NCBI GenBank assembly: GCA_937936325.1
Contig: CALGWV010000013.1
Coordinates: 1-43,104 of the forward strand
Source: an uncultured Bdellovibrionales bacterium
GTDB taxonomy: Bacteria > Bdellovibrionota > Bdellovibrionia > Bdellovibrionales > UBA1609
DNA length: 43,104 nucleotides
Direction: 5' to 3'
Shown here: one piece after another, positions 1,231 through 22,369 of the stretch
Position numbering within the stretch: the first letter of the stretch is position 1
Layout: every line of letters starts with the position of its first letter
Notes under the pieces: model-generated
What the model saw: only the letters and a program-made list of their open reading frames with translations
What the model was told of the DNA's origin: nothing
Databases searched by the model: none
Program-made: the position numbers and the translations under genes

Positions 1231-1396
1231 GTTGACCATGAAAGGGGTCAGCTTAAATGGGGATACACCGGAATTGACCCGAGCAGTGGTCACAAAGAAA
1301 TCATCTTGAGAAATCATAAAAAGTTTATTGATTTCAACTAGCTAACTTACTTACACACTTCTTCCCCAAATGACGTTGACCCCAGTGGTGGTCAAC
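1231..1396. promoter_or_regulatory. Three copies of a dyad operator, TTGACC-N8-GGTCA
   Basis: Sites at 1232-1250 (spacer ATGAAAGG), 1274-1293 (spacer CGAGCAGT) and 1376-1396 (spacer CCAGTGGT) all have TTGACC, exactly eight bases, then GGTCA. The third is the best, GTTGACC/GGTCAAC. The first two are 42 bases apart (four helical turns) and the third lies about 48 bases upstream of the sigma-54 -24 element. This is the layout of upstream activating sequences for an NtrC-type activator. The response regulator encoded just downstream is the obvious candidate to bind here. Confidence 0.75.
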
Positions 1397-1443
1397 AACG
1401 TAGAGCAAGAGGGGCTTAAACACGTTTTAATTTGAATACAGCT

Positions 1444-1459
1444 TGGCACAGCCCGTGCT
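1444..1459 (+). promoter_or_regulatory. Sigma-54 (-24/-12) promoter
   Basis: TGGCACAGCCCGTGCT matches the consensus TGGCAC-N5-TTGCA/T at every key position, with GG and GC separated by the canonical ten bases. It lies about 77 bases before the response regulator start. A small leader hairpin (GAAAGT-TTA-ACTTTC, 1486-1500) and a GGAGGG ribosome site (1520-1525) follow. Confidence 0.85.
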
Positions 1460-1535
1460 CTATCCGTAATACGATTGGCAAACCGGAAAGTTTAACTTTC
1501 AGACAGAGTTTGCTTTGAAGGAGGGATAGACAGCT

Positions 1536-2954
1536 ATGAATTACAAAATCTTGATTGCAGACGATCAACTGATGGTTCTTGATAACTTCAGGGATAAATT
1601 AATAAACCATCTTGATATTGAGCCAACTTTTACGAACCAAGCGGCAGAGGTTATAAAACTCATACAAGAAGACCCCTTTGAGTATGCGGTTGTTCTCTTG
1701 GACTATCACTTTGAAGGGCAAAATCTAAACGGTGCTCAAATCGCTGAAGAAATTTTAAAAATAAACCCAAAGCTGATTGTGCTTGTTTGCACAGGTGATG
1801 GTGGAAGAGACGCACCGATTTCTTGTTTAAAGGCCGGGGTGAGTGATTTTATTCAAAAAGATGAGCCAATAGACGAGGTCATTGCAAAGGTGAGATCAAA
1901 CTGTCGTAAGTTTGATGAGCTTTCAAGGGTGGTGACCAAAAAGTTTAACAACAATAAGCAAAACTTAGAAAATTCATCATGGATTTCAAAAATTGATATG
2001 GTCGGCTGGTCTACTTCAATGGCTGGTGTTGCAAAACAGATTTTAAGCCTTAGTGATAACGGTGCTGGAAAATCAACGGTTTTGATTCGAGGAGAGTCAG
2101 GAACTGGTAAAGAACTGATTGCAAAAGCTATTCATAAAAACTCCTCTAGAAAACTTCAACCCTTTATAAGCTTAAACTGTGCATCTATTCCATCGGGACT
2201 TTTAGAGTCAGAACTTTTTGGTCATGAAAAAGGAGCCTTTACGGGGGCTGATAAAAAACGCCTTGGAAAATTTCAAGCAGCAACAGGTGGAACAATTTTT
2301 CTAGATGAGATCGGAGAGATGCAACCTGAACTGCAAGCAAAGCTTTTAAGGGTGTTGCAAGAAAAAACAATAGAGCCTGTTGGTTCAAATAAACCTATCG
2401 CTGTTGATGTCCGCGTACTGGCGGCAACCCATGTGGATTTAGAAGAGCAAATTAGAGATGGAGTTTTTAGGGAAGACTTATTTTATAGGCTTAACCAAAT
2501 TCCATTATTTGTCCCCTCTCTAAGAGAGAGACCTGAGGACATTGCACCGTTGGTCACTCACTTCATGTCAAAACATCCAGCGGGTAAGAAGAAAAGGCTT
2601 ATGTACAAAACCCTTCAGTACTTACAAACCTATGACTGGAGGGGAAACATAAGAGAGTTAGAGAATATGGTAAATCAGCTTCTTGTACTTACTCCAGATG
2701 AAGAGATTCGCCCTGAACACTTAAATGCTAAGATTTTTGAATCTAATATACACAATCCAGTTTCATACACTGATTTTAGGAAAAAACTAGATAAAGAAAT
2801 TGAAGAGCGAGAGCGTGATTTCTTGGTCGCAAAAATTAGAGGTCATGAATCTTTAAGAGCTGCATCAAGAGCTTTAGATATGCCTAATAGCACTTTACAA
2901 AAGAAACTTTTGAAGTGGGGCTACAGATTAAAAGATGGTGTGGTGTGCGCATGA
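1536..2954 (+). CDS. Sigma-54-dependent response regulator (NtrC family)
   Basis: A 472-residue activator with the full three-domain plan. The N-terminal receiver has the acidic pair Asp9/Asp10 and phospho-acceptor Asp56 (VVLLDYHF). The central AAA+ domain has Walker A GESGTGKE (about 186-193), the sigma-54-contacting GAFTGA loop (about 233-238) and Walker B GGTIFLDEIGEM. The C-terminal Fis-type helix-turn-helix is at about 440-468 (SLRAASRALDMPNSTLQKKL). It is first in a five-gene operon whose last gene is a hybrid histidine kinase, its probable partner. It is itself preceded by a sigma-54 promoter and three dyad sites, so it probably autoregulates the operon and may also act on other ICE promoters. 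Family and mechanism are secure; the regulon is inferred. Confidence 0.95.
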   Translation: MNYKILIADDQLMVLDNFRDKLINHLDIEPTFTNQAAEVIKLIQEDPFEYAVVLLDYHFEGQNLNGAQIAEEILKINPKLIVLVCTGDGGRDAPISCLKAGVSDFIQKDEPIDEVIAKVRSNCRKFDELSRVVTKKFNNNKQNLENSSWISKIDMVGWSTSMAGVAKQILSLSDNGAGKSTVLIRGESGTGKELIAKAIHKNSSRKLQPFISLNCASIPSGLLESELFGHEKGAFTGADKKRLGKFQAATGGTIFLDEIGEMQPELQAKLLRVLQEKTIEPVGSNKPIAVDVRVLAATHVDLEEQIRDGVFREDLFYRLNQIPLFVPSLRERPEDIAPLVTHFMSKHPAGKKKRLMYKTLQYLQTYDWRGNIRELENMVNQLLVLTPDEEIRPEHLNAKIFESNIHNPVSYTDFRKKLDKEIEERERDFLVAKIRGHESLRAASRALDMPNSTLQKKLLKWGYRLKDGVVCA

Positions 2955-4030
2955 ATTTTTTAAGAAAAATAGAAGACTACGCTCTCACTAAAGCTGTTAA
3001 GAAAATTGGCGGCCAAGAGTATATGTCTATTCAGCTAGATGTCACAAACGCATGTAACTTGAGATGTTCTCACTGCTATCATCCCAACCATAAAAATACG
3101 GGCGCGATAGGTCTAAACGATTGGATGGAAATTTTAAATCAATACGACCAGATGCTAAAAAGCTTAAAGCTAAAACCAAGTATTCTAATATGTGGCGGAG
3201 AGCCAACAATAAGCCCCTATTTATTTTCAATTTTAAAAAGAGCAAATGAACTCTGGGAAAATCCTCCGATTGCTATTCTTACCAACGGTACAAAACTGAA
3301 TGACAAGCTTTTATCAATGCTTAGCCAGTACAAAATTGAATTTCAAGTTTCCATTGATGGCCCAGATGCTAAAAGACACGACATTATTCGCGGAGAAGGA
3401 AACTTTGAGAAAGCTCTTAGGGGAGCGAGGCTTGCCAAAGAGTATGGAATCAAAACAAATATTCTGGGGGTTTTGTCGAAAAAGACCTCGGCCTGGATTC
3501 CTGAGTTTTTTGAAATGGCCAAAGCCAATGGTTTAGCTTCGATGAACTTCACACGCTTTATACCGCAAGGATATGGCTCAGGTTTAGTTGATCGAGGAGA
3601 GGATGACTCTTTGTATGGGCTAGAGCTTAGAGATGCCCTGAAGGCGATAGTGAGAGGATCTGCGAAACATAGCGTTTCAACATCAACTAATGCTCCGCTT
3701 TACAATCTGATAGATCCAACCCTTGGGTCAAATGGACGCTTTGGATTTCAGGGGCTAGTTGTGGACTATAAGGGCAACCTCAAGGTCTCAAGCCGTGCAG
3801 ATTTCACCATTGGCAATGTGCTAGAAAGTGGGCTGCAAAATTTATTTCTTAACCATCCGTTAATGAAGGATCTAAGAAATAAAAAAATTAATGGGTGTGG
3901 TGATTGTATTTATTATTCCAGGTGTGGTGGAGATAGAAATATCAGCTTTGCCACAACTGGGAGTTTTTTAGAAAAAGATAAAGGCTGTTGGATTGATCCA
4001 GAGCAAAACAAAAAGGGGAAAATAGCATGA
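2951..4030 (+). CDS. Radical SAM enzyme with SPASM-like C-terminus
   Basis: I place the start at the ATG overlapping the previous stop (ATGA), giving 359 residues. The radical SAM cluster motif CxxxCxxC is Cys35-Cys39-Cys42 in NACNLRCSHCYHP. The GGEP motif follows (ICGGEPTISP), then ILTNGTKL and QVSIDGPD, typical of the SAM-binding barrel. Near the C-terminus GCGDCIYYSRCGG plus a later GCW give a Cys pattern for an auxiliary iron-sulfur cluster, as in SPASM/Twitch peptide-modifying enzymes. Such enzymes usually modify a short peptide or protein encoded next door; the adjacent 113-aa Tat-signal protein is the obvious candidate, although it has no Cys. Neighbours overlap by 4 bp on both sides, so expression is coupled. 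Exact reaction unknown. Confidence 0.9.
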   Translation: MNFLRKIEDYALTKAVKKIGGQEYMSIQLDVTNACNLRCSHCYHPNHKNTGAIGLNDWMEILNQYDQMLKSLKLKPSILICGGEPTISPYLFSILKRANELWENPPIAILTNGTKLNDKLLSMLSQYKIEFQVSIDGPDAKRHDIIRGEGNFEKALRGARLAKEYGIKTNILGVLSKKTSAWIPEFFEMAKANGLASMNFTRFIPQGYGSGLVDRGEDDSLYGLELRDALKAIVRGSAKHSVSTSTNAPLYNLIDPTLGSNGRFGFQGLVVDYKGNLKVSSRADFTIGNVLESGLQNLFLNHPLMKDLRNKKINGCGDCIYYSRCGGDRNISFATTGSFLEKDKGCWIDPEQNKKGKIA

Positions 4031-4368
4031 AAAAGCACACAAGAAGAAGTATTTTAGGAATACTGTCGATGCTGCCAATAAGTTCCGTTGCATTCGCATC
4101 CGACTTTTCTGCAAGGTTGGGTGGGGGTAATATGCCTGATGGTGATTTTGATTATGAGGGCGAGATGATGCGAAGACTTGATGAGGGAACATTGGGCGAT
4201 AAATACTACGATTTTTTAAATCGCCACAAAGTCGAGCCTCAAGATTTGGCTGCACCTAAGTTTTTAAAGCACAGAGTGAGGTTAACTAAAGAGTTTGTAA
4301 GTGATATTCATAACCCAAAAATGGACCAATTGGTTGCTGCTACTTTAAGCGCCATACCACCAAATTAA
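4027..4368 (+). CDS. Small exported protein with twin-arginine signal; candidate radical SAM substrate
   Basis: A 113-residue protein I do not recognise. It begins MKKHTRRSILGILSMLPISS and a likely signal peptidase site follows at AFA/SD (about residue 24-25). The TRRSIL stretch fits a twin-arginine (Tat) signal, meaning the protein may be folded or modified in the cytoplasm before export. The mature part is short, charged and lacks Cys, with a LGGGNMPDGDFDYEG segment after the signal and the C-terminus LVAATLSAIPPN. It overlaps the radical SAM stop by 4 bp and has an AGGGG ribosome site. The position between a peptide-modifying enzyme and a peptide-binding receptor suggests it is a precursor or a maturation substrate, which is an inference. 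Confidence 0.75.
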   Translation: MKKHTRRSILGILSMLPISSVAFASDFSARLGGGNMPDGDFDYEGEMMRRLDEGTLGDKYYDFLNRHKVEPQDLAAPKFLKHRVRLTKEFVSDIHNPKMDQLVAATLSAIPPN

Positions 4369-4380
4369 GGACTGTTAACT

Positions 4381-5910
4381 ATGAAAAAACTCGTGGTGTT
4401 GATTATGATTTTAGCAACAGTAGGTATAAGCTATTTAGCTTTGAATCAAAAAGAAAGTGAAGAAAGAGTATTGAGGGTCGGCTACCCTGGGGAGTGGAAT
4501 GATCTCATTCCAACTCTACAGCACACAGCCTATGCTGATGCTCTTATGCACAATCAGTTTGAGCCCTTAGTTGTTCTTGGTGAGAGCGGCACAATCACTG
4601 AAATGGCTGCAAAGTCTTGGTCAATTAGTAAAGACAAGAAAGAGTTTACTTTTGACATAGACACCACAAAAAAGTTCTCAAACGGCGTGTCATTAACTGC
4701 AAAGCATTTTAAAGATTCTTGGGAGTACAGTTTAACTGTTACTCCCAAGTCAGCAAAAAACAGTTTGCTTGATGTGCTTTATAAAATCGAAGGTATTGAA
4801 GATTTTAAGAAAAACGGAGAGATTACAGGTCTTAAAGTGCTTGATGATAAAACTTTGAAAATTGTTTTTAAAGAGTCATTTAGGATGGGGCTAAGTCACC
4901 TTGGTGGGACAAGAATGGCAGCTTTTGTAAAAGACGGTGATAAGTATTTGGGAACAGGCCCTTACGTCATCAATGAAATCAGTAAAACTGAACTTCTGCT
5001 TACTAAGAATAAGTACAGCACAACTCCGGCAGGTTTTCCTAAAGTGAGTGTTAAAGTCATTCCTTTCGAGCAGTCGAGAGAAGCCCTCAAAAATGGTGAT
5101 ATAGATTTATATGCTTTTGCTGAAGTTGCCCAGGTGAAATCATGTGAAGACTCTTTTATGAAGTGTGTGTCTGGAGCAGAAAACAGACATATGACCTTAG
5201 TTCTCAACGGAAAGAAGGGAAGACTTTTAAGTAATCCAAACCACAGAAAGGCATTTCAATACTTGTTTTTTGAAGGTCTTTCTTTAAAGGATATACCTGA
5301 AAAAGACAGAGTAAAAAGTCAAATCGATCCGCAAATATTTTTACCAATGCAGGCAGGACACCTTCCTGTTGAAAAAGTGAATGAGATTGTTGCCGAAGGT
5401 AAAAAACATGTGGATGCTTTTATAAAGGCTACTCAAAGTCAGCCATTGTACTTTGCTCATACCAAAGGGACTCGCTGGTACAGAGATTATTTGAGTGAAA
5501 AAGGGATTGTTCTTTCTAAAAAGACAGAAGAGGTAAAGGGGCGAAGGCTTCTGGAGATGTATTACCAAACCCATGAGCCAGATGCGCTCCCCATGTATTT
5601 AAGTGTGTTTAGTGGTGATCCAGATGGAATCTACCACGCTATTGGTTTAAATGGCGCTATCAGTTCGCCAATGCTCCACAGAAACAAAGTCACGGCACTG
5701 TTAGAAGAAGGGCGTAAAATTCTAGATTTTAAAGATGTCGGTCCACATTATCAAAAAGTTACAAAGAGCGTTTTAGAAGAGGTTCCTTTTATCCATATGG
5801 GTTTTTTAAAAGACATGGTGATTTTAAGAAAAGACCAGGTAGAAATCGATAGAAAATACGTTGGTAGAGAAGGTGGCCGGTTCACAGCTTATAGGCCTGT
5901 GGGTATGTGA
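4381..5910 (+). CDS. OppA/DppA-like peptide-binding protein, membrane-anchored
   Basis: A 509-residue member of the extracellular solute-binding family 5 (peptide/nickel). VLRVGYPGEWNDLIPTL near the N-terminus, a FEPLV block and the KKFSNGVSLTAKHFKDSWEY segment are family landmarks. The N-terminus has one hydrophobic helix (about 4-21) and no lipobox Cys, so it is either anchored by that helix or cleaved to the periplasm. No permease or ATPase genes are nearby, which is unusual for an importer and fits a receptor role feeding the downstream kinase. A comparable logic is known for peptide-binding lipoproteins in enterococcal pheromone plasmids. The gene lies 12 bp after the small exported protein, with an AAGGA site. 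Confidence 0.85.
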   Translation: MKKLVVLIMILATVGISYLALNQKESEERVLRVGYPGEWNDLIPTLQHTAYADALMHNQFEPLVVLGESGTITEMAAKSWSISKDKKEFTFDIDTTKKFSNGVSLTAKHFKDSWEYSLTVTPKSAKNSLLDVLYKIEGIEDFKKNGEITGLKVLDDKTLKIVFKESFRMGLSHLGGTRMAAFVKDGDKYLGTGPYVINEISKTELLLTKNKYSTTPAGFPKVSVKVIPFEQSREALKNGDIDLYAFAEVAQVKSCEDSFMKCVSGAENRHMTLVLNGKKGRLLSNPNHRKAFQYLFFEGLSLKDIPEKDRVKSQIDPQIFLPMQAGHLPVEKVNEIVAEGKKHVDAFIKATQSQPLYFAHTKGTRWYRDYLSEKGIVLSKKTEEVKGRRLLEMYYQTHEPDALPMYLSVFSGDPDGIYHAIGLNGAISSPMLHRNKVTALLEEGRKILDFKDVGPHYQKVTKSVLEEVPFIHMGFLKDMVILRKDQVEIDRKYVGREGGRFTAYRPVGM

Positions 5911-7586
5911 TGCAAACAACATCGCTGAACAAATGGTTCTTTAGAAACACGAGACTTCCACTATTTGCTTTGGCAGTAGTTGTTGCTTTGGTACAAGTTT
6001 GTTTTAGCTACTACACCCATAACAAATCAAAAAATGAGCAAATAAGTGCAATTGAATCTTTGGTGGCGACTGTCGCAAATATCGGGATTGAGCAAGGAAA
6101 CAGGCCTCTTCTTGAATCTTCGTTTCAGCTCGCTATCCAAGAATTAGGTGTGAACTCCATCTTAGTTTGTGAAAAAGAAAGGAAGTTGTTTCACCAGCCG
6201 ATGGGGTTTGGAAGTTGCCCTGTTCCTCCTAAAGTCACATCTATGCAGTCGATGATTCAGGTGACGCCTTCAGGATTTAAAGATTTTAAACTTTATTTTT
6301 ATGTCGATAAATTTCACTTCACAACTCCATTCATTATCCTAAACCTAGTGATTTTTCTTATGCTTGGAATTGTACTAGCCATCATCCACAACATTCAAAC
6401 AAGGCTCACTAAAGATATACTGGAGCCTTTAGAGAGAGATCTTTCGGGAGAAGATGATTTAAAAATCAGTGAGCTAAATGTTATCCGCGAAAAGTTCAAA
6501 GATTATCTTGAGTCTATAGAAAAGCGCGCAGCTGCGGGTGCGATTTTAGAGCAGAACATGAGTATTAGTCATAATATTCAGTCTATTAGGCAAACACTCG
6601 AAGTGCTTCGCTCGGGAGCGTTTACCAGTGACAGTCAGAGAAGTCGATTTGAGCAAATTTCTGATCAGATCAAAGCCATTATGGTGAAAATTGCAGAACA
6701 AACACCAGATAAAAACACAGCGGAGCTGATAGTTTCTGATGAAACTTTCTATAAGCATATGGAAAAGGAAAATGAGAAGAAAACAAAAGTGAATGTTTTT
6801 AACTTATTTGAAACTGCAATTGAGCTGAAAAAAATTGAGCTACAAAAAAGTAAAAATCAACCAAAAATAAATTTTATCCATGAACCTGGAATAAATAAAA
6901 AATTTATCGAGGCTGTTGGTCCCGAGTTAAGAGATGTTTTATCTAATTTGATGAACAACTCAATTCAGGCTGGAGCCAACAATATCGACATTGAAGTCAA
7001 ACTAGAAAATGAAAACCTTGTGTGCCTTTTACGAGATGATGGCTGTAGTATTGAAGCAGAAATTAGAAAGACTATTTTTGAAAGAGGTTTCACAAAGGGC
7101 AAAGAGGATGGAACGGGTTATGGTCTTTATCACGCTAAGAAATTTATAGAGTCTTGGGGTGGTGATATTTCTCTTTCAGAGGCGGAGGAGGCCTCTACAG
7201 AATTTGTGATCACTTTACCTCTTTGGCAGACTCCACAAATGAGGCTCGAGCACACTGGCGGTGTGGTGGTTTTAGATGATGAGGACTCCATTCATCAAAT
7301 GTGGCGAAACAAGGTTTCCAGACTAAACCCATCGGCCACAGTGAGAAGCTTTAAAACCTATGCTGATCTTTATAACTGGTTTGAGAGCTGTGATGATGCT
7401 CATAGGTATATTTTCTTAATTGATAGCGATTTTGGGGATGAGAACATGCCAGGTGAGAAGGTCATTGATGAGCTTGGAATCAACGAATCAGCCTTTCTGG
7501 TGACCAATCACTACAATAAGCCAGCCTTGGTTCAGTGGTGCGATGAGAGGGCTATAGGAGTGGTGCCAAAGGCTGCTGTGTGCTGA
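5910..7586 (+). CDS. Membrane hybrid histidine kinase with C-terminal receiver domain
   Basis: I use the ATG at 5910, overlapping the previous stop by one base; a GTG lies one codon earlier. The protein (558 aa) has a first membrane helix at about 18-38, a periplasmic region of about 100 residues containing two Cys, a second helix at about 140-160, and a non-standard phospho-acceptor helix with His221 in MSISHNIQSIRQTL. An HATPase domain follows, with the N-box LSNLMNNSIQAG, the GCSIEA G1-like segment and GTGYGLYHAKKF. The C-terminal receiver has Asp456/457, phospho-acceptor Asp505 (LIDSDFGD) and a conserved-type Lys in VVPKAA, so it looks functional. It is the operon's last gene and probable partner of the sigma-54 regulator, perhaps sensing the ligand-loaded binding protein. 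Confidence 0.92.
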   Translation: MQTTSLNKWFFRNTRLPLFALAVVVALVQVCFSYYTHNKSKNEQISAIESLVATVANIGIEQGNRPLLESSFQLAIQELGVNSILVCEKERKLFHQPMGFGSCPVPPKVTSMQSMIQVTPSGFKDFKLYFYVDKFHFTTPFIILNLVIFLMLGIVLAIIHNIQTRLTKDILEPLERDLSGEDDLKISELNVIREKFKDYLESIEKRAAAGAILEQNMSISHNIQSIRQTLEVLRSGAFTSDSQRSRFEQISDQIKAIMVKIAEQTPDKNTAELIVSDETFYKHMEKENEKKTKVNVFNLFETAIELKKIELQKSKNQPKINFIHEPGINKKFIEAVGPELRDVLSNLMNNSIQAGANNIDIEVKLENENLVCLLRDDGCSIEAEIRKTIFERGFTKGKEDGTGYGLYHAKKFIESWGGDISLSEAEEASTEFVITLPLWQTPQMRLEHTGGVVVLDDEDSIHQMWRNKVSRLNPSATVRSFKTYADLYNWFESCDDAHRYIFLIDSDFGDENMPGEKVIDELGINESAFLVTNHYNKPALVQWCDERAIGVVPKAAVC

Positions 7587-8994: not shown

Positions 8995-9460
8995 ATGGAT
9001 AAAGACTAATGTGACTAAAGGCCAACCGAAAGTAACACATTTAAAAAATAAAAAAAATGTTGGAGTATTTGCCAAGCTAGAATCTTATTTCAGTTCTAAA
9101 TGCAATCAGGGATCACAGTTTCCCCTTATTTTTTTGTTCTGAAAACATGTAGTCACAGCTCTTCTATACGCATAATAATAGTTAGCATCTCGAATTAAAC
9201 TCAATTTCAGATTACTGACCACGCTCAAATCAATAATAATGTCTTTTTCCACGGCTGTGGTCAGCCCAAATCTATTTAAATATGCGTTCACGCAAAAAAT
9301 CAAAATTTTGTGGTCACGACCACGCCGTGGGTCAACCAATAAAAAATAAAATTCAATAAAAACAATTACTTATCAACTTGGCACTTTTGGCTTTCTTCAT
9401 GCTCTAGAGAGGTATGAGGGGAATGGGTCCTCTCTTAACAGCAAGGAGGTTTCAAAAGCT
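8995..9460. promoter_or_regulatory. Putative control region of the transfer operon with degenerate operator motifs
   Basis: 466 bases without a convincing gene. GACC-N8-GGTCAA lies at 9318-9335 (CGACC ACGCCGTG GGTCAACC), TTTTCC-N8-GGTCAG at 9245-9264 and a lone TGACC half-site at 9216-9220. These resemble the operators upstream of the response regulator. GTGGTC-AC-GACCAC (9310-9323) is a further perfect dyad. TTGGCAC (9378-9384) resembles a sigma-54 -24 element, but the next GC is two bases too close (GG-N8-GC), so I would not call it a full promoter. The GGAGGT at 9445-9450 is the ribosome site of the first gene. Confidence 0.45.
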
Positions 9461-9676
9461 GTGGAGAAGTATCAAACAAAAAGTTGTTTGCGTTGTGAAG
9501 AACATGCTTGTGAAAAAGCGGGCTTTCAATACAGGTGTCGGTCCTGTGGTTTTGTAGAAGAAATTGAAGACGAGTACGAGAACTCAATTGATTCGGTTCA
9601 GAAAAAATACAACCGAACTTTAGATCTTGTAGAAATTTTTAGTTTTGCGAATGAAAAAAGATCAAACGGCTTATGA
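9461..9676 (+). CDS. Small zinc-ribbon protein
   Basis: A 71-residue protein starting at GTG behind a strong AAGGAGGT site. It has two CxxC pairs, KSCLRCEEH and YRCRSCGF, about 15 residues apart plus one extra Cys, the pattern of a zinc ribbon. The rest is acidic and helical (EIEDEYENSIDSVQKKYN). It is first in the transfer operon and overlaps the next gene by 4 bp. Small zinc ribbons at this position could bind DNA or regulate transfer; no specific family recognised. Confidence 0.65.
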   Translation: MEKYQTKSCLRCEEHACEKAGFQYRCRSCGFVEEIEDEYENSIDSVQKKYNRTLDLVEIFSFANEKRSNGL

Positions 9677-9849
9677 GCGAAGAGCAAAAAGTGAATGAGT
9701 TTAAAGATGAGGGGAATATGAAAGAGTTAGAGATGATCAATCAAAAATCAGAGCTTCAGAAGAGGAAGTCGGCTTATGAAAGAAAGTACCGTCGGCAAAT
9801 CAAAGAGAAGCTTAAAAACGTAATGAATCAATTTAAAAGGGGAATCTAA
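9673..9849 (+). CDS. Small basic coiled-coil-like protein (58 aa)
   Basis: A short gene whose ATG overlaps the previous stop (ATGA). The product begins MSEEQKVNEFKDEGNMKELE, continues with a highly basic helical stretch (KRKSAYERKYRRQIKEKLK) and ends NQFKRGI. Charge and helix content fit a DNA- or protein-binding accessory factor, for example a relaxosome component, but no family is recognised. Tight spacing to both neighbours (4 bp overlap and 4 bp gap) supports its being real. Confidence 0.6.
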   Translation: MSEEQKVNEFKDEGNMKELEMINQKSELQKRKSAYERKYRRQIKEKLKNVMNQFKRGI

Positions 9850-9853
9850 GTAA

Positions 9854-10219
9854 ATGAAAAATTTAAATAATAAAGATGAGTTTTACTATATGTCTTGGTT
9901 TTGTCCACAAACAGGGTCAAGAGAAATTGCTGGTGTTGCTTACTACAACGAAGAGTCTAGTGATTACAGGTTAATTATTAATTTTTTTCCAGAGAATAAC
10001 TACTTTCTCAAATGCTCAGAAGTTTTAGACGGTGTTTGTCACTACAAACTTCTGGCTGTTAAGCAAAGAGGTGGAGCATCAAGTCGCTTCTTTCAAGGAA
10101 ATGGAGTTCTCAATAGAGGAAAAAATGAAATCACTATAAAGGTAGCTCCTTTTTCAAAGCTGCTAATTATTAATTTAAATGGCCAGCCGGCCAGAAACCA
10201 AAAGGAGATAAAAGCTTAA
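9854..10219 (+). CDS. Hypothetical protein of the transfer operon (121 aa)
   Basis: No signal peptide or membrane segment. It is soluble-looking and rich in beta-type sequence, for example FYYMSWFCPQTGSREIAGVA and SDYRLIINFFPENNYF. The C-terminus LLIINLNGQPARNQKEIKA is followed directly by the pilin gene. The position right before VirB2 suggests a conjugation accessory role. The ATG has a GGGG run 13 bases upstream. Function unknown. Confidence 0.6.
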   Translation: MKNLNNKDEFYYMSWFCPQTGSREIAGVAYYNEESSDYRLIINFFPENNYFLKCSEVLDGVCHYKLLAVKQRGGASSRFFQGNGVLNRGKNEITIKVAPFSKLLIINLNGQPARNQKEIKA

Positions 10220-10522
10220 ATGAAGAAGTATCAAGGAATCATATTGATGAGCGTTTTGGTTGGAGTTTGTTTTGTACTACCAGAGTTTGCAGATGCGGCA
10301 GTGGTGAAATCAGGGTTTGAAAATAAAATGGCGAATCTTCAGCAAAAGTTCTCATCATTTATTTTACCAGTGATGAGTGTGCTCGGCTTAGTCATGGCAG
10401 CAATTTTAGCAGCTATGGGTAATGAGGGGGCTAAATCAAAAATTTACTTCTGTTTAGTTGGAAGTGGAGTTGGTTTCTTAGCACCCTACATTATTGGATG
10501 GATTCAAGGGATTTTAAACTGA
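10220..10522 (+). CDS. virB2: VirB2/TraA-like pilin precursor
   Basis: A 100-residue protein with a long signal peptide (about 1-26, ending FADA/A) and two hydrophobic helices (about 49-67 and 77-97) separated by a short NEGAKSK loop. This is the size and topology of conjugative pilins of the VirB2/TrbC family. It comes first among the secretion genes, before VirB3, as in the VirB operon. The next start overlaps its stop. Confidence 0.8.
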   Translation: MKKYQGIILMSVLVGVCFVLPEFADAAVVKSGFENKMANLQQKFSSFILPVMSVLGLVMAAILAAMGNEGAKSKIYFCLVGSGVGFLAPYIIGWIQGILN

Positions 10523-10845
10523 TGAGTCTTGACCGTTCAGTCGTTCATAGAAACCTAGATTCAAAAATAAAGTTTTTGGGTATGGAGTTATTTGATGTCA
10601 TCGGAGTCGGTGCCTTTGCTTCAATTATGAACCTCATATTTGGTCAAACTAACATAGCGGGGGTGATGGTCTTTGGCCTCCCCGCGCTTTTAAGTGTGAT
10701 CATTTATTTGGGAAAGAAGGGAAAGCCTGAGAGGTTTTTACAAGATTACATTAGATTTTCAGTTCTTCCTGGGGTTTTTTGCGTGGGTGAAGACCTAAGC
10801 TTTGAAAATCAAAGAAGGAGGGAAGTTGTCTTTAAATCCAAATAG
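10522..10845 (+). CDS. virB3: VirB3-like inner-membrane protein
   Basis: I use the ATG overlapping the pilin stop (10522), giving 107 residues. The pattern is typical of VirB3/TraL-type proteins: a short charged N-terminus (SLDRSVVHRNLDSKIKFLGM), two closely spaced membrane helices (about 25-60) and a charged tail. Its place between VirB2 and VirB4 agrees. It overlaps the VirB4 start by 20 bp. Confidence 0.75.
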   Translation: MSLDRSVVHRNLDSKIKFLGMELFDVIGVGAFASIMNLIFGQTNIAGVMVFGLPALLSVIIYLGKKGKPERFLQDYIRFSVLPGVFCVGEDLSFENQRRREVVFKSK

Positions 10846-12223
10846 TATCGGAGACTTTTTAAATATCTGGCATTTCTTTGGTGACCTGATGGTTTTTGGG
10901 GACGGATCGCTTGGGTGTGGTTTTAAGCTTAGTGGAAAAGATATTTCTTGTGTGACTGATGAGGAAGTGAGTCAGTTCACTCGAAAATTAGAAAATATGG
11001 TGACAAGTCTCGATGAAGGACTTTCTTTTCAGTTTTTCTATAAACTTGAATCTAATGTTTTAAGAAAAATAGAAGAACACGAAAGCCTATCTTCAGATTG
11101 TAAGATCAATGGATATGAGAAAATACTTAACTCAAGAGTTGATCAGTTTAAGAAAAACTCAAGAGATGGGCATTTTTTTAACCCACAAGTTTATTTTTTT
11201 CTAAGAGGAAGGCCTTATACTTTTAAAAGAAAAAAACTACTTCAAAAAGAAAAAGACTTTACTCAGGTGCAAGAGGAAGATTTTAAAGTTCATGCTGAAG
11301 ACTTCGAGCGTTCTATCAACCAGGTGGAGTCTTCTTTAAAAGACAGCTTCTTGTTTGACGACCGCTTAGCAAAAGAAGACTGGTTTGCACTTTTATATGA
11401 GCATTTCAATCTTGATAGGTCAGAGGCACATGAGGCACCAAAACTTAAAGGTCCAAGGGTATTTTCACCGAGTTCTTTGCTAAATCAAATGCTGTTAAGT
11501 GATATTTCGCTTAGTAAAAACTATCTAGAGGTTGGAAAATACAAATTTAGAACTGTAAGTTTAAAGACTCTTCCAGATGAAACTTATTCAGGTTTAATTA
11601 ATGGCCTATTGGGTATGAGCTTTCACTGTTGGATCAGCCAGGTTGCTAAGGTCTGCAATCAATCTAAAGAATATAATTCTTTACAACTCAAAAGGCGTGT
11701 CGCTCATTCTATGGCCTGTGGAAATAGTAATGTAAGTGATATGGAGAGTGAGTCTAAGCTTGGTCAAATTGAAGGGCTTTTAGGCGAGCTGATTGACAGT
11801 TCAGAAAAAGTTGTTGAGGTGGATCTAAATGTCATCGTTTGGGGTGAGACAGAAAGAGAACTTGAAGAAAAGTGTGACGAGGTTCTTAGGACTTTTAAAA
11901 AACTCAACCATTCAGAAGCTTTAGTTGAAACTTATGCAGCTTTTGACTCGTTTATCAAAGCAGCCCCCGGTCTTTGTCTCATTAACAGAGCAAAGAAGAT
12001 GAAGTCATCAAATCTTTCGCATTTGATCCCAGCATTTTCATATTGGAGAGGTAATAATAAACCAAGCTGCTTGCTTCCAAATAGAGACAATGTCCTGGTT
12101 TCAATAGACCCATTTGCTCCAGAGCTACCAAACTGGAATGGATTTATTGTGGGCTCATCAGGCAGTGGAAAGTCTTTCACCATAAACCAAATGATTTTGA
12201 TGTTTATAGGAGATCAACAGTGA
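10826..12223 (+). CDS. virB4: VirB4-type ATPase, N-terminal part up to Walker A
   Basis: The TTG at 10826 has GGAGGG just upstream; a TTG at 10802 is also in frame. The 465-residue product carries the VirB4/TraC N-terminal domain and ends shortly after Walker A, GSSGSGKSFT (about 443-452), stopping at MFIGDQQ. Normal VirB4 proteins are about 800 residues, with Walker A and B in one chain. The remainder is encoded by the next gene in the -1 frame, starting at a GTG that overlaps this stop. VirB4 energises pilus assembly and substrate transfer at the inner membrane. Whether the split is natural or a frameshift (real or sequencing) is open. Confidence 0.85.
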   Translation: MSLNPNSIGDFLNIWHFFGDLMVFGDGSLGCGFKLSGKDISCVTDEEVSQFTRKLENMVTSLDEGLSFQFFYKLESNVLRKIEEHESLSSDCKINGYEKILNSRVDQFKKNSRDGHFFNPQVYFFLRGRPYTFKRKKLLQKEKDFTQVQEEDFKVHAEDFERSINQVESSLKDSFLFDDRLAKEDWFALLYEHFNLDRSEAHEAPKLKGPRVFSPSSLLNQMLLSDISLSKNYLEVGKYKFRTVSLKTLPDETYSGLINGLLGMSFHCWISQVAKVCNQSKEYNSLQLKRRVAHSMACGNSNVSDMESESKLGQIEGLLGELIDSSEKVVEVDLNVIVWGETERELEEKCDEVLRTFKKLNHSEALVETYAAFDSFIKAAPGLCLINRAKKMKSSNLSHLIPAFSYWRGNNKPSCLLPNRDNVLVSIDPFAPELPNWNGFIVGSSGSGKSFTINQMILMFIGDQQ

Positions 12224-13284
12224 AAAGTGATCTTCAAAATGACGTTTCAAAGTCAAAAGTGGTGTGGATAGACAATGGCGCTTCGTCTCAGGGAATGGTT
12301 GAGTCATTAGATGGTCAATTTATTGATCTAAGTCTTGAAAGTGGCCTTGTGCTCAATGCCTTTCAACTCGATGAGGGTGAGAGTCAGGTTTCCCCTACAA
12401 AGAAAAAACTTCTTTTAGGAGTTATTGAGTCCATTTGTAAAGAGGATGATTCACATGGTTTGCCAAAAAGAGAGAAGGCTCTTTTAGAGCAAGCAATTGC
12501 TGACACCTATGAAGTTTGTCGGGATAAGTCGCCAACAATGAGTGACTTTAAAAACACTCTAGAGAATCACCGTTTAGAGGAAATGAGAAAGTATGCAGAC
12601 ATCTTGTACTCATGGACAGGAAAGACGGCCTACGGAAAACTTCTTGATGGACAAACCAATATAGAGCTTTCTAAGCCTTTGGTGTCTATCGAGGTTAAGG
12701 GGCTAGATATTTACCCAGACCTTCAAAGGGTTTTACTGCTAATTCTTACAGAGCACATTATGAATGAAGCTTCTAAGAATCCAAGCCAGCGGTATTTGTT
12801 AATTGTTGATGAGATTTGGAAGGTATTGCAAAACGAGAGTGCTGCCCAGTTTATTATTGAGTGCTACAGGACCATGAGAAAGTTTTATGGAGGAATTTGG
12901 GGTGTCACCCAGTCCATAAAAGACTTTATGTTTGACCCAGAGATTGCAGCAGCAATTATGCAAAACACTCCGAGCCGAGTCATTCTCAAGCAAAGAGGGG
13001 TTGATTGGAAAGAGTTTCAAGAAATTTTATCTCTTAATGATGCTGAAGTTGAAGCTGTAAAGTCGCTTCGTTCAGAAAAGGGTAAGTTTTCAGAGCATCT
13101 TTATATCCAAGATGAGCAAAAGGCTATTTTAAAAATAGAACCCGATGCTCTTTCATATTGGATTTGCACAACTGACCCTCAAGATAAAACTGTAATAAAC
13201 GAATTCAAAACAAAATATCCAGACCTAAAATACATAGAGGTGTTGGAAAAAATTGTTGAAAAACAAAAAGGAGAAAACAACTAA
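12220..13284 (+). CDS. virB4: VirB4-type ATPase, C-terminal part with Walker B
   Basis: A 354-residue continuation of VirB4: VVWIDNGASSQGMVESLDG and GQFIDLSL are what follows Walker A in TraC/VirB4 proteins. Walker B is YLLIVDEIWKVL, followed by YRTMRKFYGGIWGVTQS. The two pieces add to about 820 residues, the normal size. GTG is preceded at 7 bases by AGGAG (12208-12212), a proper ribosome site, so the fragment could be translated by reinitiation. The upstream frame is also open for some distance, so a -1 frameshift mutation is equally compatible. No slippery heptamer was seen at the junction. Confidence 0.85.
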   Translation: MKSDLQNDVSKSKVVWIDNGASSQGMVESLDGQFIDLSLESGLVLNAFQLDEGESQVSPTKKKLLLGVIESICKEDDSHGLPKREKALLEQAIADTYEVCRDKSPTMSDFKNTLENHRLEEMRKYADILYSWTGKTAYGKLLDGQTNIELSKPLVSIEVKGLDIYPDLQRVLLLILTEHIMNEASKNPSQRYLLIVDEIWKVLQNESAAQFIIECYRTMRKFYGGIWGVTQSIKDFMFDPEIAAAIMQNTPSRVILKQRGVDWKEFQEILSLNDAEVEAVKSLRSEKGKFSEHLYIQDEQKAILKIEPDALSYWICTTDPQDKTVINEFKTKYPDLKYIEVLEKIVEKQKGENN

Positions 13285-13285
13285 A

Positions 13286-13981
13286 GTGAAATTTTTAGTA
13301 ATCCCATTGTGTGCAATTATTATTGGCGTAGGAACTCCTAAAAAAAGCCATGCTTTATTTGGTGCAGATGCTGCGGCCATGATTCCATTTCTAGTAAAAA
13401 TATTGGCCCAAGCCGTTAAGCAGTATCATCAAATGAAAACTCTCTATGAGAACGCTAAGAATCATAAAGAGATGTTTCGGTCCATTAACGATGGCCTTAA
13501 TGCAGCGATTGGACTTTTAGAGAGTTTACCTATTGAAGATGAAAATATTTTAGGTGAATTAAAGACATTTCGCCGAGCAATGAACGAGATAGAACAGATC
13601 TATGGTGCTATTCCAAAGGGTAAAGAAGAGCTTTTGATGAGGCTACACGACAATACTGTTGCTGAGTCGATTAAAATTTCAAACTCTTTAAAGCAGTACG
13701 CTAAGTCTCAAGAGAAAAATTCAAATAGAATTGCAAGGCAAGCAGCTCATGTCAGTCCAAAGGGAGCTGCAAGAGTTAATGTTCAAACAAATGCGGCCAT
13801 TCTACATACACTAAATCAGCTTTTGAGAGTGAACGGTCAGATGCTTAAACTTCAAAGTGAAAACCTGGCTATGACTAACAAGACTGCTAAAGAGTCAAAT
13901 TACCATTTCAGTAAGGTGACTAAAGATCTTGGAAGTAGTTTTAAGAGTTTTGAAGCCAGTTTTAGGACGCCAAAGTTTTAA
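13286..13981 (+). CDS. virB5: VirB5/TrbJ-like periplasmic protein
   Basis: I use the GTG at 13286, just after the VirB4 stop, giving 231 residues; an in-frame TTG lies upstream at 13253. A signal peptide (KFLVIPLCAIIIGVGTP... ending SHA/LFG) is followed by a long alpha-helical protein with many Gln, Asn and Lys residues. The pattern is typical of the VirB5/TrbJ minor pilus component. Its position between VirB4 and VirB6 matches the VirB order. Confidence 0.65.
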   Translation: MKFLVIPLCAIIIGVGTPKKSHALFGADAAAMIPFLVKILAQAVKQYHQMKTLYENAKNHKEMFRSINDGLNAAIGLLESLPIEDENILGELKTFRRAMNEIEQIYGAIPKGKEELLMRLHDNTVAESIKISNSLKQYAKSQEKNSNRIARQAAHVSPKGAARVNVQTNAAILHTLNQLLRVNGQMLKLQSENLAMTNKTAKESNYHFSKVTKDLGSSFKSFEASFRTPKF

Positions 13982-14961
13982 TGTATGATTGGCTACCGGA
14001 AGTTTGTCGAGAAATCAGAGGAAATTTACTTGAGATTTATTGGTTGTCCATAGTTCCCCTGACTCTTTTGTTGATCATTTTAGAATTTTTTAAATTACCA
14101 GAGCGAGAGCCAAATGCTTTGGGAGTTATAAAGCGGGCTGCGATTTCAATAATTCTCTTAATGAGTTTTGATGAAGTTATACATACGATTGCAGCTATTG
14201 GCGATGGTATTGTGCTCTCTATTAGCCCTAAGCCTCATATCAATCAGGTTTTAGACGAGGTGTGGAAGTTTGTTCAAAGTGTTGAGCTGAGTTGGCTGAA
14301 ATATAAAGAGACTATCATTTGGGTGTTTAGTCTCATGTCATTTATATTTGCATATCTTGGTGCCTTTATAGCAGATGCGTTGGTTCATTTCTGTTGGGCG
14401 ATTCTGTATATCCTCTCGCCACTGATGATCCTTGCTTACATTCCTCAATCGACGGCTAAGATTGCCATAGGGCTTTATAGAAGTCTTTGTACAGTCATGA
14501 CCTGGAAAGTGATGTGGGCAGTACTCGGGGTGATTTTATTAAAGTTTACAACTAATGTTCCAATAACCGAGGCTGATAACTACAACGCCGTTTTGCTAAT
14601 TGTTATTAATGTTTTTATTGGCCTCAGCATGCTTTTTGTCCCGATTGCAACGAAAGCATTCTTATCAGGAGATTTTGCAGCTTATTCAGGTGCCCTAGCT
14701 ATAGCCCCGGCCATTGCTTCAAAGAAGTTAATTGTAAGTCAGCTTAAAAAAGCAGGCGGTTTTGCTGCAAAACGTGGAAAGAATTTTGCCTTTAGTGGAG
14801 TTAGAGGAACAGGCCGTGCTGTTAAAGGTTTTGGTGAAAGGTTTAAAGGTAGAAAGGACGCTTCAAATCAAAGACCAAATTATTCAGACTTAAATACAAA
14901 GACAAAGAGTGTGCGCACTCCAAAAAAATCAAATACTAACAAAGGAGATCGACGTAAATGA
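13981..14961 (+). CDS. virB6: VirB6-like polytopic membrane protein
   Basis: A 326-residue protein with about five to six hydrophobic segments (about 20-40, 50-70, 100-125, 130-150, 165-185, 195-220) and a long basic, Ser/Thr/Lys-rich tail (about 245-326). VirB6/TrbL proteins form the inner-membrane part of the secretion channel. The start overlaps the VirB5 stop by one base and its stop overlaps the next ATG. The basic tail could contact DNA or other components. Confidence 0.75.
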   Translation: MYDWLPEVCREIRGNLLEIYWLSIVPLTLLLIILEFFKLPEREPNALGVIKRAAISIILLMSFDEVIHTIAAIGDGIVLSISPKPHINQVLDEVWKFVQSVELSWLKYKETIIWVFSLMSFIFAYLGAFIADALVHFCWAILYILSPLMILAYIPQSTAKIAIGLYRSLCTVMTWKVMWAVLGVILLKFTTNVPITEADNYNAVLLIVINVFIGLSMLFVPIATKAFLSGDFAAYSGALAIAPAIASKKLIVSQLKKAGGFAAKRGKNFAFSGVRGTGRAVKGFGERFKGRKDASNQRPNYSDLNTKTKSVRTPKKSNTNKGDRRK

Positions 14962-15551
14962 TGACATTTAAATCAAAGCGTTTAGAACCTGTAAATCAAT
15001 GGATAAAGGTTAATCTTTTAATGAGAAATCTTCGTCTTGTGATTCACGGATTGCTAGTTTCAAATTTTATTCTTATGGGAACCTGTATCTACCTACTTAA
15101 CAAAGATACCTTGGTTGTTGCCTTAACAGAGTCAGACAGTCTTTATTTTATAGGCAAGAGACAAAAGAATGAAGTGAATGAAGAAGATGTTGAAAAAGCT
15201 GCAAAAAACTTTGTTCTTAACCGCTATCAGTGGAAAGACTACAGCATTGAAGCTTTAGTTAGAAATATTTCACCGCATGTGACTTATGGATTACTAAAGA
15301 AGATGACAAAGAAGTTTGAAAAATCAAAAGACTTTGTAAAAAAGAATGCGATTTCTCAAGACATTGTTGTCCAAAGTGTTGAGTTAAAAGAAAGTCATGT
15401 TGAGGTCAAATTTGATAGGGTGGTATCCGTTGGGAAAAAAGTTAAGGCCGTTCAACCCTTAGAAGTGCATCTGGAAATTATTCAAGACACTGCGAACAAA
15501 TGGAATCTAAAAGGGCTCTATGTAAATTCAATCACGGAGTTTGAACAGTGA
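14958..15551 (+). CDS. virB8: VirB8/TraE-like assembly factor
   Basis: A 197-residue protein with one N-terminal membrane helix (about 25-48) and a periplasmic domain of about 150 residues. The segment EDVEKAAKNFVLNRYQW and a beta-rich end with KWNLKGLYVN are typical of the VirB8/TraE fold. An AGGAG site precedes the overlapping start. VirB8 nucleates the inner-membrane complex and contacts VirB9 and VirB10, the next two genes. Confidence 0.7.
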   Translation: MMTFKSKRLEPVNQWIKVNLLMRNLRLVIHGLLVSNFILMGTCIYLLNKDTLVVALTESDSLYFIGKRQKNEVNEEDVEKAAKNFVLNRYQWKDYSIEALVRNISPHVTYGLLKKMTKKFEKSKDFVKKNAISQDIVVQSVELKESHVEVKFDRVVSVGKKVKAVQPLEVHLEIIQDTANKWNLKGLYVNSITEFEQ

Positions 15552-16264
15552 TAAGACCTCTGGTTCTACTTATTGTGTGTTTTTTTACAAAGCCTGCTTT
15601 TTCAAAGGTGCGGACCATTGAAATGGACTCTGGTCAAATGAAGACCATTACTCTTGCTTTGGGGAGATCTACAGTTTTGCAATTTGTAGATTCTCCCAAG
15701 AAAATAGTAAGCGGTAATAGCAACTACTTTAATATCGAGTTTACTGGAAATGATGTGACTATTCAGCCTCTTTCACAAGTTTCAAGTAATCTGTTTATAT
15801 ACAGTGGCCATAGACGCTTTGGGTTCATTTTAAAGGTTTGCCACTGTCAGAGCTATGATGACTTGGTCAAAATTTACTGGAAATACCCCAAGAAAAAAGC
15901 CGCAAAGCGATTTGTTAAGAAAAAAAATAAATTCAAATCTCAGTCCTTTCATGTTGGAAAAACCAAAGTTTACGCATCAAACATGTTTTATCATAAGTTT
16001 AATGATGTTTATGTTTTAGATGGCAGCTTTGTTCTACCAAAGGGCATGGCTAAGCCCAAAGCAAAAGACTTTTGGACTACGAAGGGTGGCAAAACGTTAA
16101 CGACATTGGATGTTGTTTTCTCAGATGAGGTAAAATTTAAGAACTATAGAAACATCAGGTTTCGGATGTTTTTAAAACTTCTTAAACCAGTGGATTTTAC
16201 CCTGAGAGCGAAATTAGGAAAAAAAGAGGGCCATGTGATCATCTATAAGAGGTGGTATCAGTGA
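15548..16264 (+). CDS. virB9: VirB9/TraK-like outer-complex protein
   Basis: A 238-residue protein with a signal peptide (about 1-18). Beta-strand-rich sequence such as GQMKTITLALGRSTVLQFV and GNDVTIQPLSQVSSNLFIY resembles the TraK/VirB9 secretin-like fold, and GFILKVCHCQSY supplies two Cys. The position before VirB10 agrees. The start overlaps the VirB8 stop. Assignment rests on the fold pattern and order. Confidence 0.65.
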   Translation: MIRPLVLLIVCFFTKPAFSKVRTIEMDSGQMKTITLALGRSTVLQFVDSPKKIVSGNSNYFNIEFTGNDVTIQPLSQVSSNLFIYSGHRRFGFILKVCHCQSYDDLVKIYWKYPKKKAAKRFVKKKNKFKSQSFHVGKTKVYASNMFYHKFNDVYVLDGSFVLPKGMAKPKAKDFWTTKGGKTLTTLDVVFSDEVKFKNYRNIRFRMFLKLLKPVDFTLRAKLGKKEGHVIIYKRWYQ

Positions 16265-17280
16265 AGCCTATTTTTAAGAGATGCTATTTGCAAATAAAAA
16301 ATATAGTTCTCGCCCCAATAAAAATTTGGGGCGAGGTGAAGTCATTTTGTGACGAGAAGTTCTTCAAGAAGTACTTTGGCAAAAAAACAATTAATCTAGC
16401 AGCTTCTATGAAATGGGGGTTTTCGCTTTTTCTAATATTGATGACTGGACTAAGTCTATTCATGTCTCCCGAAGAAGACAGTAGCTCTTATAGTACGTCA
16501 TATATAAAGGCCAAGAGTAAAGAAAGCGAAGGTGTTGATGGTGTGAAAATTGTGACACCTATTAGGCCTCTAAAGGGTACATCTAGTAGAAAACAGAACA
16601 GGATTTCAGGCGATGAATCAGCTCCGAGGCAGTTAAAGCGAGGGGCTCACTCTGCAATCAAGTATGCTGGAAAGCAGGTCTTAGTTCGGTCAAGTTCCCA
16701 AGGTGACAGAGCGTTGCCCGTGGGGACAAACCTGATTGGAAAGCTTCTATCTAGTGTTGATACACGTCAAAGCGAAAAGTTTGTGCGTGTGCTACTGCCT
16801 TATGGTGGGAAGTTCAAAAATCGAGTTGGTATTCCTAAAAATACTGTTCTGCTTGGCCAGGTCTCATACCCAAGCCGAGGAAAAAGAGTTTATCTCAATT
16901 TTCATACAGGAGTCTTGCCAAACGGTGAGGAGATCAAGGTAGCAGGGGCTGCGATGGACGCTAAGGATTTTTCTCCAGGTCTTATTGGTAATTATAACAG
17001 TGCTTTTTCCGGCAGAGCAGGAGCCACTCTAGGGTTTTCTTTTGTAGCTGGTGCAAGTGAAGTTCTTCAAGAAAAAGAAGCTCTTGGGCAGGGGCATTTT
17101 GTATCGAAAAAGGCCACTTTAAACAACGCACTTTTAAATGGAGTTTCAGAGTTTGCAAAAACAGAAGGGGCGTTTCAGTTAGAAGAGGCTCGTAGCGAAA
17201 CGGGCTTCGTCACTCTAAATCAAGGAAAAGAGTTAATCATCACTTTAACCAAAACATTTAAGAATGGAGGGGAGAACTAA
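16261..17280 (+). CDS. virB10: VirB10/TraB-like channel protein
   Basis: I prefer the GTG at 16261, overlapping the VirB9 stop and preceded by AAGAGGTGG; the frame also has a GTG at 16252. The 339-residue protein has an N-terminal cytoplasmic segment, one helix (about 52-68), a charged flexible region and a C-terminal beta-barrel-like domain. VRSSSQGDRALPVGTNLIG, VLLGQVSYPSRGKRVYLNF and LPNGEEIKVAGAAMDAKD are VirB10/TraB signatures. It spans the envelope and forms the outer-membrane pore with VirB9 and VirB7. Confidence 0.85.
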   Translation: MKPIFKRCYLQIKNIVLAPIKIWGEVKSFCDEKFFKKYFGKKTINLAASMKWGFSLFLILMTGLSLFMSPEEDSSSYSTSYIKAKSKESEGVDGVKIVTPIRPLKGTSSRKQNRISGDESAPRQLKRGAHSAIKYAGKQVLVRSSSQGDRALPVGTNLIGKLLSSVDTRQSEKFVRVLLPYGGKFKNRVGIPKNTVLLGQVSYPSRGKRVYLNFHTGVLPNGEEIKVAGAAMDAKDFSPGLIGNYNSAFSGRAGATLGFSFVAGASEVLQEKEALGQGHFVSKKATLNNALLNGVSEFAKTEGAFQLEEARSETGFVTLNQGKELIITLTKTFKNGGEN

Positions 17281-18761: not shown

Positions 18762-19531
18762 GCAAAAGCCATCGTTACTCTTTACGCTTAAACAATAGAG
18801 ATCGACTCTTGTTTGAATATTTATTTGTGACTAAAGGAGCCACTCGTCGACAAGTGCATAAGGATATTTTTACTGGCAGGTCTGCTCCGACGGTTCATGA
18901 TAGGCTTAGCAAGCTTGAGAAGTATGGGTATATTGAACGTTTCCCTGTTCATTTTGATGGTTCAATGCTTGGCTATCGTCTGACATACAAAACAGTAAAT
19001 GATTGTGAATTTTTCGATATTCAACCTAAAAGATCAGAGTTTAAGTCAACAAATCCAAGCCATGATTTTTCATTGATTGAGATAAGAAGAGGATTCCTTA
19101 GGGCTGAGGGATTAAAGCATTATCTAATGGAAAATGAACTACAGTCAGGCTTAATTAATGGGAAAGTCTATGAATATAACGATTTCAAGAGTCTAAATTC
19201 AGATGCTTTCATTAGATTGCGAATCGGATCCAATGAGTTTTCAGGTGCGATTGAATTCGAACAGTCAGTAAAAATGAAATCTAGGTATATTGAGCTGTTC
19301 AATTCTTATTATGATTCTGATCATGTCACATTTGTTCTTTACGTTGTTGCAAATAATCGTTTGTATTCAGCAATATTGAATTTTGAAAAGGAAGTTAGAG
19401 GTGAGCAAAGACCAAAAATATTTGCAATAACTTACAACGATTTCAAAAATGAAGACAAGTGTCTCGAGTTTAAGAATCACGATGGTCACGTTTTAAATAT
19501 AACATTAAAACAGGATGGAGGAGTTAAATGA
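18758..19531 (+). CDS. Replication-relaxation family-like protein, candidate DNA-processing factor
   Basis: A 257-residue protein. The N-terminal winged helix (about 10-75: RDRLLFEYLFVTKGATRRQV, then VHDRLSKLEKYGYIERF) is followed by a domain resembling plasmid replication-relaxation proteins (Replic_Relax). Landmarks are His102/Asp103 in PSHDFSLIEIRRG, Asp149, and Glu166-x-Glu168 followed by Lys in GAIEFEQSVKMKSRY, which can be read as a PD-(D/E)xK-type nuclease core. No classical relaxase (two-His MOB family) was recognised here, so this gene, coupled to the T4CP by a 4-bp overlap, is the best candidate for recognising or nicking the transfer origin. Function inferred. Confidence 0.6.
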   Translation: MSKSHRYSLRLNNRDRLLFEYLFVTKGATRRQVHKDIFTGRSAPTVHDRLSKLEKYGYIERFPVHFDGSMLGYRLTYKTVNDCEFFDIQPKRSEFKSTNPSHDFSLIEIRRGFLRAEGLKHYLMENELQSGLINGKVYEYNDFKSLNSDAFIRLRIGSNEFSGAIEFEQSVKMKSRYIELFNSYYDSDHVTFVLYVVANNRLYSAILNFEKEVRGEQRPKIFAITYNDFKNEDKCLEFKNHDGHVLNITLKQDGGVK

Positions 19532-19705
19532 TTATCATAATTTAAAATATTTGATCCTAATTGGAGTCTAATTTGCATCGAACTCATTTAGGAAGTTTTT
19601 CATATGCGTTTTCAGATAAGTAACTAAATTAAATCGGCTTTCTTGAATTAGGAAGTAAACTGTATTTGAGTCAGTCAATGTATATGGAGGTGTAGAATTA
19701 CATTT

Positions 19706-22282: not shown

Positions 22283-22369
22283 TGGTACCGACGGCGAGAA
22301 TCGAACTCGCACATTATTGCTAATACGGGATTTTGAATCCCGCGCGTCTACCAATTCCGCCACGTCGGC
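22283..22369 (-). tRNA. tRNA-Leu (anticodon CAA), intact
   Basis: Read on the minus strand it begins GCCGACGTGGCGGAATTGGT. The anticodon arm is CGGGA-TTCAAAA-TCCCG, so the anticodon is CAA (reads UUG). A long class II variable arm (ATTA-GCAA-TAAT) and T-arm GCGAG-TTCGATT-CTCGC follow, and CCA is encoded. Positions 1 and 72 form a G-U pair. T6 follows the CCA. Its 3' end faces the integrase gene and its 5' half is repeated twice to the right, so it marks the ICE boundary. Confidence 0.93.

Follow-up and report, generated by a model that had tools for sequence, protein, structure and literature searches.

Three inverted repeats of the form TTGACC-N8-GGTCA precede a sigma-54-type promoter in a 43,104-nt stretch of DNA from an uncultured Bdellovibrionales bacterium (contig CALGWV010000013.1; "the window" below means this whole stretch). 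They raise the question of which protein the repeats serve and which genes are controlled through them. An original prediction had described them as enhancer sites of an NtrC-type activator that regulates its own gene. It captured the sites, the promoter and the probable autoregulation, but was incomplete, as a second promoter, four co-transcribed genes and the mobile-element context had been missed. Without expression or binding data, we consider it likely that the sites are upstream activator sequences of an element-borne NtrC-type regulator and belong to a sigma-54 positive-feedback switch for conjugation.

Dyads, promoter 1 and the linked regulator

A pattern scan of the window found TTGACC-N8-GGTCA exactly at 1232-1250, 1274-1292 and 1376-1394; a fourth match was site 3 again, read on the opposite strand. 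The chance expectation is 0.01 per window and the observed count was reached in none of 100 shuffles, so that the three predicted dyads are borne out. The 18-mer TGACC-N8-GGTCA forms the symmetric unit, while the leading T lies outside the symmetry and is not kept in relatives. The units, to which no strand is assigned, are dyad 1 (TGACCATGAAAGGGGTCA, 1233..1250), a predicted upstream activator site, dyad 2 (TGACCCGAGCAGTGGTCA, 1275..1292), an exact match to the pattern, and dyad 3 (TGACCCCAGTGGTGGTCA, 1377..1394), which starts 66 bp before the start of the sigma-54 element. From one dyad start to the next, the distances are 42 and 102 bp. The 42 bases given in the original prediction for dyads 1 and 2 hold as a start-to-start distance, but not as a gap, which is 24 bp between the two 18-mers.

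Promoter 1 (TTGGCACAGCCCGTGCTCTA, 1443..1462, forward strand) contains TGGCAC-N5-GTGCT (1444-1459), in which GG and GC are spaced as in a -24/-12 promoter (GG-N10-GC). It is the best sigma-54 match in the window (matrix score 25.5). Compared with YTGGCAC/TTGCW, TTGGCAC-N5-GTGCT is one base off, within TTGCW; it qualifies as a -24/-12 promoter and is near-canonical rather than canonical, as had been claimed. The host genome contains rpoN.

The first gene downstream is indeed that of the regulator (1536..2954, forward strand), with an ATG at 1536 preceded by GGAGGGA. Its product is an NtrC-type response regulator that combines a receiver domain (Response_reg, 6.8e-12), in which D9, D10, D56 and K108 are invariant in 11 orthologues, with an AAA+ domain (Sigma54_activat, 1.3e-68; Walker A motif GESGTGKE at 186, GAFTGA at 233) and a C-terminal FIS-like helix-turn-helix (HTH). 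The latter was read from the alignment (LRAASRALDMPNSTLQKKLLKWGY) and its pattern is conserved; no Pfam HTH match was obtained for the regulator. All three hallmarks of the NtrC family (AAA+ domain with GAFTGA, receiver aspartate and C-terminal HTH) are thus present and, judged by its sequence, the residues that phosphorylation and sigma-54 contact require are in place. NtrC itself (NR(I)) was rejected as its identity, the score being 338.7 bits versus an NCBIfam ntrC equivalog cut-off of 558.6.

A genome-wide search for the motif had been proposed as a check. Besides the three sites, the exact 19-mer has only two matches in the 2.06 Mb genome, neither of them with a sigma-54 element found next to it. 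Dyads with one mismatch numbered 48, versus 34 in the reversed control; there is therefore no evidence for a wide regulon. Dyads on contigs C2 and C91 were considered as further switch sites and rejected, as they lack a sigma-54 context.

Promoter 1 in related loci

With the radical SAM protein of the operon as query, the operon was found, complete or partial, in 10 of the 141 genomes of the order; G000, G037, G076 and G100 contain two copies each. The wide loci share the gene order, although several are cut by contig ends, and enzyme identities range from 50 to 73%. A masked stretch interrupts the copy in L083, and the one in L084 lies at a contig end.

Promoter 1 has a counterpart before every orthologous regulator examined, and it was measured in ten loci (the window, L072, L073, L074 and L076-L081). 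All ten have three dyads, and the last one starts 65–67 bp before the start of the sigma-54 element. The distances from dyad to dyad fall into the classes 42–45/101–103 (window, L072-L074, in which the position of dyad 1 is thus kept) and 85–87/87–98 (L077-L081), with 91/66 in L076. The letters vary: dyads are of the TGACC type in the window, L073, L074 and L079, and of the TGTCC type in L076, L077, L078, L080 and L081, with mixed half-sites in L072 and a third form in L082. Symmetry is kept throughout and both half-sites mostly change together, as selection by a dimeric protein would give. At the level of sequence, the dyads and promoter 1 are real and conserved. Together with the domains of the regulator and the presence of rpoN, the layout in ten loci supports the assignment to an NtrC-type activator, and its position before the orthologous regulator supports autoregulation, both as predictions, with no binding shown.

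Binding of the regulator to the dyads is inferred, and such palindromes are also typical of dimeric repressors. The dyads could accordingly belong to another DNA-binding protein, e.g. a repressor of this kind, with the sigma-54 promoter being activated from elsewhere. We regard this as improbable. The constant 65–67 bp to the sigma-54 element places the last dyad well upstream of the usual repressor position, matches elsewhere in the genome are in little excess, and two copies in one genome differ in their letters, following the linked regulator. In the host genome, the window copy combines TGACC dyads with PNSTL in the HTH, and the copy on contig C31 combines TGTCC dyads with SKSSL. Within the HTH motif PN[ST][ST]L, N accompanies TGACC and K accompanies TGTCC in all ten loci, if the mixed L072 is counted with the first type. 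Independent changes supported by the tree number only one, or two at most, and this covariation of predicted sites and HTH residues is a lead, not a result.

The second copy of the host genome (G000 C31, L076 5260-11303) has its own promoters, and its proteins are 31–57% identical to those of the window. Additional dyads 2.5–4.6 kb upstream in L073 and L074 were rejected: most fall inside coding regions or at their ends, one is in a terminator-like hairpin, and none has a sigma-54 element. Regulator homologues from a genome-contig collection were likewise set aside as general NtrC-family proteins; among the 50 matches listed, the best was 54% identical over part of its length. A profile search of viral contigs with the radical SAM enzyme gave no match, and among the best matches in plasmids only distant NirJ-type proteins were found.

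The five-gene operon and its small exported protein

The operon encodes, in this order, the NtrC-type regulator, a radical SAM/SPASM enzyme, a small exported protein, an OppA-like binding protein and a hybrid histidine kinase, with short gaps or overlaps between the genes. The enzyme (2951..4030, forward strand) has the motif CNLRCSHC and C-terminal cysteines. It is below every curated family cut-off (best NCBIfam score 108.7 bits versus 395), and it does not qualify as a curated peptide maturase of a RaS-RiPP system. The binding protein (4381..5910, forward strand; SBP_bac_5) is of the OppA/DppE type and closest to dipeptide, oligopeptide and nickel-binding proteins. The operon contains no gene for an ABC permease or ATPase, and we infer that sensing is a more likely role for the binding protein than membership of an importer. 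The membrane kinase (5907..7586, forward strand) has an invariant H222 in SHNIQS, N and G boxes and a C-terminal receiver-like domain (D508, K555); phosphorylation of the regulator by this kinase is inferred.

The small protein (4027..4368, forward strand) has 113 amino acids, a signal peptide, a helical middle and a disordered tail, ATLSAIPPN. The radical SAM enzyme may plausibly act on this protein, and a modified peptide signal would fit, with modification, release and binding all being inferred. It might, however, be a structural or regulatory protein, e.g. a kinase inhibitor, with the enzyme acting elsewhere; this would otherwise be compatible with the proposed switch, and we give it only slightly less than an even chance. 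The AlphaFold2 model, which has a confident helical middle (43–95) besides the disordered tail, does not describe a bare peptide, no RiPP family matched the protein, and in L074 and L075 it ends before the tail. A role as signal precursor is favoured by the position of the gene, which lies between the enzyme and binding-protein genes wherever the gap is readable, by the short tail (LSAIPP, ISIGG), which is similar in most near relatives, and by the signal-peptide motif L-[AS]-x-[LMI]-P-x-x-x-[IV]-[SA]. All 17 loci have this motif (with one C for L), even where the rest is unrelated. A fold search gave no significant match, and an identity as Coq4 was rejected, as only one of 11 members matched, below the cut-off.

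As a tentative extension, which we hold to be possible but would not bet on, each member of a family of Gram-negative-type conjugative elements would use its own radical-SAM-modified secreted peptide, via the OppA-like protein and the hybrid kinase, to set off the sigma-54 positive-feedback switch for conjugation, and the diverged promoter letters would ensure that it answers only its own regulator. If so, the diverged co-resident copies would be a natural set for studying the insulation of NtrC-type regulators. The operon would also provide a functional context for a radical SAM family without assignment and for a small protein that is most conserved in its signal peptide.

A second promoter and the conjugation genes

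A similar arrangement is found in the 860-bp gap before a putative transfer operon (9461..20538, forward strand). Promoter 2 (TTGGCTTTCTTCATGCTCTA, 9387..9406, forward strand) is preceded by a dyad (CGACCACGCCGTGGGTCA, 9317..9334) at 70 bp and by a weak dyad (TTTCCACGGCTGTGGTCA, 9246..9263), neither with an assigned strand. The layout is the same in L072, again before the transfer operon, and partial in L073. Dyads with a sigma-54-like element also occur downstream of the kinase gene in L076, L077, L081 and L124, and on the divergent side in L078 and L080. Promoter 2 has a weaker -24 element and poorer dyads than promoter 1, and in L073, L076 and L080 the -24/-12 match is partial. A TTGGCAC at 9378-9384, just upstream of the -24 box, is kept in L072 and L073. 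The region between the kinase gene and promoter 2 encodes an exported protein with a weak match to matrixin-type metalloproteases (7795-8994).

We scanned for composites, i.e. a dyad 60–91 bp before a GG-containing sigma-54 match. The 332 kb of system loci gave 18 matches, of which 17 fall at promoter 1 or 2 in the expected orientation, compared with 0.33 per shuffled pass and three weak matches in 688 kb of control loci. The controls had a G+C content of 54 versus 42%, and the shuffle preserved only single-base composition. As the matrices derive from the sites of promoter 1, the matches at promoter 1 are expected by construction; those at promoter 2 are not.

The transfer operon starts with a zinc-ribbon-like ORF (9461-9676) and ORFs at 9673-9849 and 9854-10219, followed by VirB2/VirB3-like genes (10220-10845), VirB4 in two overlapping ORFs (10802-12223 and 12220-13284), and genes for TraE-like, CagX/VirB9-like, TrbI/VirB10 and FtsK/TraD-like (17280-18761) proteins, all on the forward strand. 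A tyrosine recombinase gene (Phage_integrase, 20917..22257, forward strand) marks the right end of the element, and tRNA-Leu(CAA) (22283..22369, reverse strand) is its probable integration site. With VirB4, TrbI, CagX and FtsK-like proteins and an integrase beside tRNA-Leu, the region fits an integrative conjugative element in these features. No relaxase was recognised among the scanned proteins of the window, in which the left end of the element is cut by the contig. The split of VirB4, present in L072 as well as in the window, may be natural or reflect decay, and the capacity for transfer cannot be taken for granted. Considered with regard to a left attachment site, a 25-mer of the tRNA-Leu 3′ end (22283-22307) recurs with one mismatch at positions 113-137 of both C17 and C91 of G000. 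These contigs share their first 141 bases, and the recurrence has the look of a further integration site or a second tRNA-Leu gene copy.

In each of the eight contigs of the order that are informative (the window, G076 C3 and C10, G100 C97, G037 C1 and C12, G097 C49 and G067 C25), VirB4 is at most about 25 kb away from the operon. The enzyme also turns up in six genomes from other families of the phylum, with the binding protein and the kinase where the contig allows. Among these copies, only L118 gives a tblastn match to the window regulator, while L119 has a different 464-aa receiver protein instead, and no TraC-type VirB4 was found near them on the same contig. A tie between the sensory module and conjugation therefore does not hold everywhere, and the module may be older than the link, an inference from these sequence comparisons.

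The operon could be an ordinary nutrient- or metal-sensing two-component passenger, with control of the transfer genes incidental or absent. The affinities of the binding protein, and other-family copies that are not next to VirB4, are compatible with this. It is nevertheless unlikely, if a little less so than an unrelated dyad-binding protein, as promoter 2, of the same design, lies directly before the transfer operon, VirB4 is closely associated within the order, and permease and ATPase genes are absent. Conservation among the loci establishes, as sequence features, the two promoters, the dyads with their spacing, the content of the operon and the link to conjugation. In the switch that we favour, the membrane kinase and the periplasmic OppA-like protein would sense an extracellular ligand, and the kinase would phosphorylate the regulator. 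Bound to the dyads at a near-fixed distance, the regulator would activate two sigma-54 promoters: that of its own operon, so that positive feedback and a switch-like response would result, and that of the type IV secretion/transfer operon from about 9.4 kb. The ligand is inferred to be a peptide, most plausibly derived from the small exported protein after radical SAM modification.

The proposed switch resembles NtrC/sigma-54 systems with glnAp2-type enhancers and -24/-12 promoters in its REC-AAA+-HTH regulator, GAFTGA motif, upstream dyads, GG-N10-GC and predicted autoregulation. It differs in having three dyads at a nearly fixed distance, in its location on a conjugative element and in the repeat of the design before the transfer operon. 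Enterococcal pheromone systems resemble it in using a binding protein of the OppA type and a precursor that carries a signal peptide for export. Conjugation of enterococcal pCF10 is under peptide-pheromone control via PrgZ/PrgX (PMC5552905, PMC7117660), and the likeness lies in a signal system over conjugation genes. In contrast, pCF10 relies on peptide import and a cytoplasmic repressor, whereas a membrane kinase, a sigma-54 activator and a radical SAM enzyme are predicted here and no pheromone has been shown. Streptococcal RaS-RiPPs under Rgg/SHP control (PMC13361665) likewise join cell-signalling genes to a radical SAM enzyme whose locus has a short secreted product, but the present locus has no Rgg/RRNPP regulator and no curated family match, and it comes from a different kind of bacterium and is linked to type IV secretion. 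Each part is of a known kind; the whole assembly was not found in the literature searched, a set of open full texts without most subscription papers, in which papers were judged by title and abstract. If true, the switch would be a counterpart of pheromone-controlled conjugation outside Gram-positives, and its simple promoter code (a dyad 65–70 bp before GG-N10-GC) would make the regulon predictable from sequence.

On the other side of promoter 1, the reverse strand encodes a ThsB-type TIR protein (645-1016) adjoining a caspase-like ORF (223-627) of 134 amino acids, compared with 319 in a relative. The two (223-1016) look like a Thoeris-like defence pair with an apparently shortened caspase gene, and a TIR/caspase-like pair also lies beside the operon copy in L079 (6268-7634).
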